From an uncultured Clostridia bacterium (lineage in GTDB: Bacteria > Bacillota > Clostridia > Christensenellales > Borkfalkiaceae), in the NCBI GenBank assembly GCA_947625695.1, contig CANQPO010000019.1:1-33350 (forward strand): a DNA stretch of 33,350 bases, given 5' to 3'. Under the pieces are notes generated by a model. That model was given only the letters and a program-made list of their open reading frames with translations. It had not been told where the DNA came from and ran no database searches. The position numbers and the translations under genes are program-made. Shown here piece by piece: positions 19,625 to 21,808 of the stretch (the first letter of the stretch is position 1; every line of letters begins with the position of its first letter).

Positions 19625-21808
19625 ATGAATTTGTTCAAGAAAAAGACGGATGGCGAGACCGAAGTTCCCGTAAAAGAGGAGAAACATTACCTCTCGGGGA
19701 AGGAAGTCCGCGCCATCGCCAAAGAAAACAATAAGGTGATGCGGGAACTTGAAAAATACAAGAACCGCAAGGCGGAGGAATCCGAGTTCGTCACCGAAAT
19801 GAAGGACCCTTCGAATATCCTCGAGGTCGAAAATCTGCACTCCTACTTTTTCACCGATCAAGGGGTGGTGAAGGCGGTGAACGGGGTTACGTTCAACGTA
19901 CCGCAGGGCGCCACCGTCGGCATCGTTGGCGAGTCGGGCTGCGGAAAATCGGTCACGAGCATGTCCGTCATGCGCCTTTTGCAGGGCCCGCAGGGGCAGA
20001 TCGTGGAGGGCGGTATCCGCTTTAAGTCGTTTGACTTCAAGCTGGGCGAGGACAAAAAGCCCATTCCCATTTGGGAGGACGACGAAAACGGTCAGCCCAT
20101 TTACGACCCCGTCTATGTAAAAAAGGGGAAGGAACCCGTTTGGGACGACGATGAAAACGGCGAGCCCGTGTTTGTTCCCGTCATGAAAAAGACGGGGACC
20201 GAGCCCGATTGGGCGGAGGATGAAAACGGTCAGCCCATTTTCGACCCCGTCTATGAAAAAAAGGGCATGGAACCCGTTTGGGACGACGACGAGAACGGCA
20301 ACCCCGTGTATGAACCCGTCATGAAAAAGACGGGCGTCGAGCCCGTTTGGGACGACGACGAAAACGGCAACCCCGTCTACGAACCCGTCATGAAAAAGAC
20401 GGGCACCGAGCCCGTTTGGTGGACGGACGAAAAGGGGGAGCCCATTCTCTATCCCGTGCTCGGCAAGAACGGCAAACCCATTTTCGACGAAAACGGGGAG
20501 CCCGTCAGAGAATTCAAACAGAGAAGCGACAACAAGGGCAGGAAGATGACCCGCCCCGTGTATGCGCCCAAACTCGACGAAAACGGCAACCCCGTCACCG
20601 AGCGCAGGCAGAAAAGAGACGAAAAGGGCAAGAAGGTATTCAAGCCCGTTCTGGAGCCCGTGCTCGACGAAAACGGCAGCCCCGTCACCGAGCGCAGGCA
20701 GAAGAAGGACGAAAAGGGCAAGAAGGTATTCAAGCCCATTCTGGAGCCCAAGCTCGACGAGAGCGGGAACCCCGTCACCGAGCGCAGACAGCGCACGGAC
20801 GGTAAAGGGAAAAAGCTCTTCAAACCCGTTTATGAGCCCGTACTTGACGAAAACGGCAACCCCGTCACCGAGCGCAGACAGAAAAAAGACGAGAAGGGGA
20901 AGAAACTCTTCAAGTCGCTCCTCGTTGCGAAACTCGACAAAGAGGGGAACCCCGTCACCGAGCGCAGACAGAAGAGGGACGAATACGGCACCAAGCTCTA
21001 CGAAATGGAAGAGAAGGTGTTCGACATCGCCAAGATGCCCATCAAGGAGATGTTCCGTCTCCGCGGGCGGCAGATCGCGATGATCTTCCAGGAGCCCATG
21101 ACCTCCCTCAACCCCGTGTTTACGATCGGGAACCAGCTCGACGAAGTGACCCTTCTCCACGTGCCCGGCGCAACGGCGGAGGAGGCGAAAAAGCGCTCCA
21201 TCGAGATGCTCAACCTCGTGGGGATCGCCATGCCCGAGCGGGTGTATAAGTCCTATCCGCACGAGCTCTCGGGCGGTATGCGCCAGCGCGTGATGATCGC
21301 CATGGCGCTCGAGGGGAACCCTCGCCTCATCATCGCGGACGAGCCGACGACCGCGCTCGACGTTACGATACAGGCGCAGATCCTCGACCTTCTGCGGGGA
21401 CTTAAGGACCGCATCAACGGCTCCATTCTGCTCATCACCCACGACCTCGGCGTCATCGCCGAAATGGCGGACTTTGTCGTCGTCATGTACGCGGGGCGCA
21501 TCATCGAGCAGGGCACGGCGAGCGAGATCTTCCACGATCCCCGTCATCCCTACACGATCGGGCTTCAGAAGAGCAAGCCGACGATGGATTCCAAGTCGGA
21601 GTCTCTCTTCAATATCCCGGGCAACGTGCCCAACCCCGTCAATATGCCCAACTATTGCTACTTCCGCGAGCGGTGTTCGGGCTGCAACCAAAAGTGCTAC
21701 GGCGATTATCCCGAAATGGTGCAAGTGAGCCCCACCCATTGGGTCGCTTGCCATCTGTACGGCGAGGACGCCGTGCAGAACGCCAAGGAGAACGTAGATG
21801 AGTATTAA
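19625..21808 (+). CDS. oppD: Oligopeptide ABC transporter ATPase (OppD-type) with internal tandem-repeat insertion
   Basis: A 727-aa ATPase of the OppD type; usual members have about 320-350 residues. All catalytic motifs are present: Walker A GESGCGKS (102-109), Q-loop FQEPMTSLNP (Gln489), signature LSGG (548-551), Walker B with Asp572-Glu573, and H-loop His606. The C-terminal oligopeptide-type domain has clustered Cys (CYFRERCSGCNQKC) as in the family. The distance from Walker A to the Q-loop is ~380 residues instead of ~50-60, because about 315 residues (147-463) are inserted. They comprise about six 23-residue repeats (PVWDDDENGNPVYEPVMKKT type, 147-285), one transition unit (286-314), and five 30-residue repeats (LDENGNPVTERRQKKDEKGK type, 315-463). 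The N-terminus also carries ~60 extra charged residues. It starts two bases after oppC and overlaps oppF by 11 bases. The reading frame is intact throughout. Confidence 0.93.
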   Translation: MNLFKKKTDGETEVPVKEEKHYLSGKEVRAIAKENNKVMRELEKYKNRKAEESEFVTEMKDPSNILEVENLHSYFFTDQGVVKAVNGVTFNVPQGATVGIVGESGCGKSVTSMSVMRLLQGPQGQIVEGGIRFKSFDFKLGEDKKPIPIWEDDENGQPIYDPVYVKKGKEPVWDDDENGEPVFVPVMKKTGTEPDWAEDENGQPIFDPVYEKKGMEPVWDDDENGNPVYEPVMKKTGVEPVWDDDENGNPVYEPVMKKTGTEPVWWTDEKGEPILYPVLGKNGKPIFDENGEPVREFKQRSDNKGRKMTRPVYAPKLDENGNPVTERRQKRDEKGKKVFKPVLEPVLDENGSPVTERRQKKDEKGKKVFKPILEPKLDESGNPVTERRQRTDGKGKKLFKPVYEPVLDENGNPVTERRQKKDEKGKKLFKSLLVAKLDKEGNPVTERRQKRDEYGTKLYEMEEKVFDIAKMPIKEMFRLRGRQIAMIFQEPMTSLNPVFTIGNQLDEVTLLHVPGATAEEAKKRSIEMLNLVGIAMPERVYKSYPHELSGGMRQRVMIAMALEGNPRLIIADEPTTALDVTIQAQILDLLRGLKDRINGSILLITHDLGVIAEMADFVVVMYAGRIIEQGTASEIFHDPRHPYTIGLQKSKPTMDSKSESLFNIPGNVPNPVNMPNYCYFRERCSGCNQKCYGDYPEMVQVSPTHWVACHLYGEDAVQNAKENVDEY
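20063..21013 (+). repeat. In-frame tandem coding repeats inside oppD (69-bp and 90-bp units)
   Basis: The 69-bp units run to 20479; units starting at 20135, 20204, 20273, 20342 and 20411 are in exact 23-codon register. A 29-codon transition unit follows, then 90-bp units start at 20567, 20657, 20747, 20837 and 20927. Neighbouring copies are very similar at DNA level (for example the units at 20273 and 20342), so recent expansion or gene conversion is likely. All units keep the reading frame. Confidence 0.92.

Follow-up and report, generated by a model that had tools for sequence, protein, structure and literature searches.

A tandem-repeat insert between Walker A and the Q-loop of an OppD-type ATPase from an uncultured Clostridia bacterium

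The opp operon and the nucleotide-binding domain of OppD

The window, which is the whole 33,350-nucleotide stretch of DNA analysed here, contains an intact oppABCDF operon, in which all genes have the same direction as oppD. The gene oppA (14661-17393, plus strand) encodes a 910-residue solute-binding protein of the SBP_bac_5 family, and the permeases are encoded by oppB (17477-18472, plus strand) and oppC (18487-19623, plus strand). The ATPase gene oppD (19625-21808, plus strand) starts with ATG and encodes a protein of 727 residues, which contains an expanded insert, and oppF (21798-22994, plus strand) encodes the partner ATPase, which has no insert and a Walker A-to-Q spacing of 43.

The initial annotation had described an OppD-type ATPase with a large insert between Walker A and the Q-loop and intact catalytic motifs, and both parts of this description are borne out. 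The families PF00005 (ABC_tran, E 3.2e-24) and PF08352 (oligo_HPY, E 4.8e-17; 62.6 bits against a cut-off of 27.1) are recognized in OppD above their Pfam cut-offs. Motif reading and alignment place the Walker A sequence GESGCGKS at residues 102-109 (19928-19951), the Q-loop glutamine at Gln489 (21089-21091), the ABC signature LSGG at residues 548-551 and Walker B with its glutamate at Asp572-Glu573 (together 21266-21343), and the H-loop histidine at His606 (21440-21442), all within one nucleotide-binding domain (NBD). In an alignment of 72 sequences, comprising P0001 and 71 of the 120 listed homologues, Walker A, Gln489, LSGG, Glu573, and His606 are fully invariant, and Asp572 belongs to the class conserved in 90% or more. 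Cysteines 678, 684, 691, and 709 of the C-terminal region are invariant in all 72 rows, and these four oligo_HPY-region cysteines presumably bind an iron-sulfur cluster in such proteins. The portion consulted of a report on mycobacterial relatives mentions a cluster-bound domain (PMC12136057).

The three best NCBIfam models for the protein are OppD, OppD, and a dipeptide ATPase, and none of the best 25 reaches its cut-off. The score against PRK09473 is 332.9, with a cut-off of 575, and the short relative P0013 is likewise under it with 341.9. We therefore place the protein among the OppD-type ATPases but outside the subfamily PRK09473. Its sequence is that of an OppD-type ATPase with intact catalytic motifs, the predicted engine of an oligopeptide importer. 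No second OppD was seen in the same genome, which is 82% complete; the next match is oppF with 166.9 bits, and outside the operon nothing exceeds 76 bits. We set aside an open reading frame of 728 residues on the opposite strand (19568-21754), which probably only mirrors the coding strand.

Two further proteins are encoded upstream of the operon. The first (5468-13009) is 2513 residues long and has matches to subtilase, PA, fn3_5, Big_2, and BspA-type leucine-rich repeats; this subtilase-type protein might supply peptides. The second, a lipoprotein-like protein of 535 residues (13011-14618), shares with OppC short DESGNP/DENGDP turn stretches that resemble those of the OppD insert, and in OppC such a stretch (DENGDPV...DASGKQI) follows the first hydrophobic segment.

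The insert and its repeat arrays

The insert comprises 325 residues between Walker A and the Q-loop (residues 140-464; 20042-21016, plus strand) and is delimited by the sequences IRFKSFDF and VFDIAKM, its exact ends being chosen. The alignment with Rv1281c halts at OppD residue 136 and restarts at residue 474, and in the E. coli-type OppD model PRK09473 the flanks of the insert end at model position 68 and begin again at position 71. In the full-length AlphaFold2 model, the insert is bordered by strands 124-138 and 461-467, which, together with the short forms found in relatives, suggests that the insertion site is a hairpin turn.

The insert is built of two families of tandem repeats with units of 23 and 30 residues, as had been annotated, and the unit listing refines their numbers. 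The A array (residues 149-286; 20069-20482, plus strand) consists of five 23-residue units, the first of which starts at residue 149, and a divergent sixth unit from residue 264. The B array (residues 281-460; 20465-21004, plus strand) consists of a divergent 30-residue unit from residue 281 and five further 30-residue units; as listed, its start lies within the last A unit. The program TRF detected two arrays with periods that are whole numbers of codons, one of 69 bases at 20066-20446 (5.5 copies, score 378) and one of 90 bases at 20555-20997 (4.9 copies, score 445). The DNA of the units is 0.49-0.93 identical in the A array and 0.54-0.87 identical in the B array, with the divergent units included. 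The near-identity claimed for neighbouring copies thus applies to A4 and A5 (0.93), but not to the other pairs (0.49-0.87 in A, 0.54-0.87 in B). The A units fall into two sets by likeness, one of units 1 and 3 (0.87) and the other of units 2, 4, and 5 (0.86-0.93). Unit A4 is closer to A5 of its own genome than to A4 of the related locus L009 (0.78), which is the pattern that local conversion would leave.

The regular turns described earlier stand out from chance. The insert contains 16 turn motifs, compared with a mean of 2.5 and a maximum of 8 in 500 shuffles, the motif having been defined after the sequences had been inspected. A count across 140 inserts, some of which repeat one place, gave 556 motifs against 97.6 in shuffled sequences, and in tests of single inserts seven of 14 exceeded the maximum of 500 shuffles, two of them being near-copies. 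The distances between successive turn motifs in the 140 inserts are mostly even (8, 12, 14, 16), with the exception of 23. The even distances could reflect a strand register, but the rows are related to one another, and for this reason the pattern was not taken as evidence. Apart from the array and an out-of-frame echo of it, a search of the genome gave no similar repeats, and a Pfam scan of the insert gave no family above the cut-off, Rhs/YD and other named beta-hairpin repeat families included. The repeat family DUF6807 stayed below its cut-off of 27 with 20.0 and 23.5 bits, the match covering 42 residues of a model with a length of 270; P0004 carries a precomputed PF14100 label. We take the DUF6807/PF14100 likeness as a chance similarity of charged repeats.

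The NBD core is modelled as OppD with the insert in place, and the five full-length AlphaFold2 models have mean confidences of 74.1-77.2, the NBD included. When the arm was modelled alone, one of the five models reached a mean confidence of 81.2, compared with 46.6, 39.1, 37.4, and 34.9 for the others. The part consulted of a study on repeat proteins reports that AlphaFold2 can give confident but unrealistic solenoids (PMC11795689). Because of this warning and of the single confident model, we did not adopt a beta-solenoid arm as a firm result, and the low confidence of the other four models, together with the reported bias, indicates that the arm may be disordered. A fold search with the arm gave no usable matches, and the list from the full-length search was filled by the NBD.

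Insert length and content in related OppD proteins

Inserts were found in relatives, as the initial annotation had proposed to check, and their lengths and kinds vary widely. The homologue search scored the 7999 candidates that shared most words with the query and were 0.55-1.75 times its length, and normal-length OppDs are therefore absent from this set. Among the 120 listed homologues, the commonest Walker A-to-Q spacing is 114, and others reach up to the 379 of the window. The spacing of 379 is shared by four other species of the same genus (L009, L010, L011, and L012); it is 349 in P0003 and 167 in L039, the OppB, OppC, and OppF of which are 93-94% identical to those of the window. The differing spacings indicate that the number of units has been altered among close relatives. 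The proposed recent change in copy number is thus supported by P0003 and L039 and opposed by the constancy across five species.

The searches by taxonomic rank used the best-matching loci and not every OppD of the genomes. Matches to the window's protein were obtained in 57 of 61 genomes of the genus, and in 15 of the 30 best-matching loci, window included, the spacing is at least 142. In the family, 41 of 81 genomes matched, and the 28 further loci all have spacings of 96-114. A scan of the collection provided 80 loci with a graded series of spacings from 54 upwards. The set thresholds were passed by 27 of 121 genomes in the order, 29 of 148 in the class, and 50 of 199 in the phylum; the newly fetched best-matching loci have spacings of 53-391 in the order (22 of 22), 48-55 in the class (29 of 29), and 48-49 in the phylum (28 of 28). 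All 57 loci read outside the order have spacings of 48-55. L086 has a spacing of 83 by the stricter motif pattern, L192 is readable with the looser pattern only, and L064 and L148 contain no readable OppD. L116 comes from a record titled Corallococcus sp. (Myxococcota), yet its OppD groups with Clostridia forms, and it is probably a mislabelled metagenome-assembled genome.

A tree calculated without the insert requires 13 changes to account for the "long" state (spacing of at least 142), of which at least six are forced by starred branches; of the 231 distinct cores, it includes 147, since most rows with spacings of 114-115 (84 of 112) were dropped, and 61 of its 144 inner branches are weak. 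In this tree, L039 falls among the forms with spacings of 349-379. The basal stretch of the insert, PIPI...QKRDEYGT.YEMEEKVFDIA, recurs in many relatives. OppDs of the P0013 type, from the same genus, family, and order, have spacings of about 95-130, carry the same basal sequence at the same site, and have adjoining opp genes in the loci read; they contain a few turns, in contrast to the two tandem arrays of the window. Judged by eye and without a statistic, no link was seen between the length of the insert and that of OppA, OppB, or OppC.

The same site can be filled with other sequences. In the inserts of P0034, P0035, and P0038, the usual turn motifs are followed by four or five segments of strong hydrophobicity, and we predict that these segments form a membrane domain. 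The hydrophobic parts are 41-52% identical to one another, compared with 90-92% for the cores. Two genomes of the genus (L027 and L029) encode OppDs of 665 and 674 residues, lengths that match the form with the hydrophobic insert. No stand-alone relatives of the hydrophobic insert were found at E 0.01 among the 7999 candidates scored, and P0034 and P0038 gave no Pfam match to it above the cut-off. P0093 and its kin have an Ala/Glu/Lys-rich stretch at the insertion site, and L158 (spacing 391) and L159 (spacing 321) have further long charged inserts there. P0054 carries another copy of the Walker A (P-loop) stretch within its insert, so that two Walker A copies precede one Q-loop, which may be real or an assembly error.

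Some OppDs are extended at other positions. In L107 (4633-7353), L114 (4666-7365), and L152 (minus strand), about 455-460 residues with 10-11 hydrophobic segments precede the NBD; this part gave nothing above the Pfam cut-off in the two proteins scanned, L107 and L114, and in none of the three did it show a relation to the hydrophobic insert (best E 0.23). In L108, L112, and L110, OppD ends in an extended C-terminal tail of low complexity, in which Lys, Ala, Ser, or Thr predominate. The spacing of OppF is 43 in 163 and 40-48 in all of the 171 loci that were readable out of 189, some being repeats of one place. As far as these sequences tell, the insert is restricted to OppD among the two ATPases, and OppF is unextended.

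Selection on the insert and its possible roles

In comparisons of the window with five relatives, the insert has a dN/dS of 0.105-0.163 and exceeds the core two- to fivefold (0.035-0.053 for residues 1-139 and 0.026-0.056 for residues 465-715); in the comparison with L039, only 113 insert codons align. All five comparisons also give a higher dS for the insert than for residues 465-715 (0.387 and 0.229, respectively, with L009). Conversion between units or their misalignment may be the cause, and the dN/dS of the insert is therefore to be read with care. The insert is probably constrained. Mis-assembly or a wrong frame across the repeat has to be considered, given that the genome assembly comprises 93 contigs and that repeats readily collapse or expand when assembled. 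Nevertheless, the same spacing with open frames is found in four other species, more synonymous than replacement change is seen along the array, and both ends of the insert join the conserved NBD in frame. The shared array length and the apparent constraint make an assembly quirk unlikely, and we regard an artefact as very improbable.

Our preferred reading, with a probability of about 0.45, is that the ATPase is a normal one to which an evolvable arm for docking or tethering has been added, on OppD but not on OppF. What was a short segment between Walker A and the Q-loop, likely the turn of a beta-hairpin, would have grown into about 325 residues. These likely project as a charged arm, by which a partner would be docked or tethered at OppD and not at OppF. 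The ATP cycle would be kept and the arm added to it, since the NBD core is conserved and is modelled as OppD with the insert. Because the units comprise whole numbers of codons and their counts differ between close relatives, the arm may lengthen through in-frame unit duplication and conversion. The arm is predicted to be extended and to hold a cytoplasmic partner in the bacterium studied here, and the membrane in relatives with the hydrophobic domain at its tip. The predicted membrane domain suggests that the arm of these relatives, with very roughly 50-100 residues a side, would reach the bilayer. The intact core and operon, the lack of a second OppD among the matches in the genome, the graded inserts at one site, the repeated changes on the tree, the low dN/dS, the excess of turn motifs, and the absence from OppF speak for the docking arm, as do the hydrophobic segments that relatives carry within the insert or ahead of the NBD. 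As described in the part consulted of a report on Ecm16, a relative of UvrA, swapping the insertion domain of this ABC ATPase for a linker abolishes DNA binding (PMC10192343). Against the docking arm count that no partner was found, that no known domain was recognized in the insert above the Pfam cut-off, and that the dN/dS of the insert, which unit conversion may have lowered, is above that of the core. Furthermore, the free variation in length and kind, with a spacing of 167 in L039 and 379 in the window, is odd for a defined docking arm. The tests of single inserts, in which half of them (seven of 14) surpassed the shuffles, and the low confidence of four of the five arm models likewise weaken this reading.

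The same variation is expected if the insert is a tolerated spacer, a possibility that we place close behind the docking or tether arm. The insertion site would then be a surface spot where in-frame repeats or other sequence pile up harmlessly and without a partner, and selection would only keep the insert soluble and in frame. The weaker constraint than in the core and the lack of a partner among our findings fit such a spacer, and two other proteins beside oppD also hold short DENG/DESG turn stretches. Harmless accumulation agrees less well with a dN/dS that lies far under 1, a spacing shared by five species of the genus, the recurrence of the basal stretch, and the absence of the insert from OppF; this evidence is not conclusive, since conversion between units can itself lower dN/dS. 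A regulatory arm, which would gate ATP hydrolysis by folding back onto the permease or the OppD-OppF dimer, is improbable. The position between Walker A and the Q-loop and the presence on one of the two ATPases would suit it, and the insertion domain of Ecm16 links the ligand to the ATPase rate, according to the part consulted of that report (PMC10192343); however, one would expect the length of an arm that makes a gating contact to be preserved, and the spacing ranges from 53 to 391 within one order.

The docking or tether arm can be extended to a broader and more tentative reading, in which the OppD turn is an evolvable socket in this order. A conserved stalk would bear a tip that has been filled several times over and that tethers the ATPase to partners or the membrane, and the fillings, equally speculative, would be hairpin ladders, charged linkers, and the membrane domain. 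Such a plug-in arm organisation of ABC importers was not found in our literature search.

Comparison with known systems

The Walker A-to-Q-loop stretch is usually regarded as a fixed part of the NBD core. Here, one spot within it takes from a few residues to about 340, predicted membrane domains included, many times and with the motifs kept. The OppDs of this order thus form a set of natural variants with which one can study where the engine of an ABC importer tolerates decoration, and OppD might be tagged at the insertion site. Should the arm prove to have a partner, peptide uptake would be coupled to something else in the cell in a new way.

The E. coli OppD and DppD (PDB 8z21_C and 8z1v_C; PRK09473 and PRK11022) have no insert. 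UvrA and Ecm16 are likewise ABC ATPases with an added domain in the NBD, but they bind DNA and are not transporters, and the likeness considered here is one of general layout. A known counterpart is the Mollicute OppD (NF043079, MMSYN1_0167), which, by model coordinates only, has a long insert at the same site: the flanks of the window's insert match model positions 1-69 and 297-544, leaving roughly 220 positions beyond the E. coli model. The window's OppD scores 313.5 against this model, below its cut-off of 740. The Mollicute OppF model NF043078 looks extended as well (3-55 and 467-603), unlike the OppF of the window. The initial statement that such insertions are not known in Opp systems therefore does not hold, since the NCBIfam Mollicute model already implies an insert at this site and relatives in the order have inserts there too, although our literature search found no paper on such an insert in OppD. 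Our analysis adds the arrays of tandem repeats, the finding that the insert has grown repeatedly within one order, its confinement to OppD, and a version with a predicted membrane domain.
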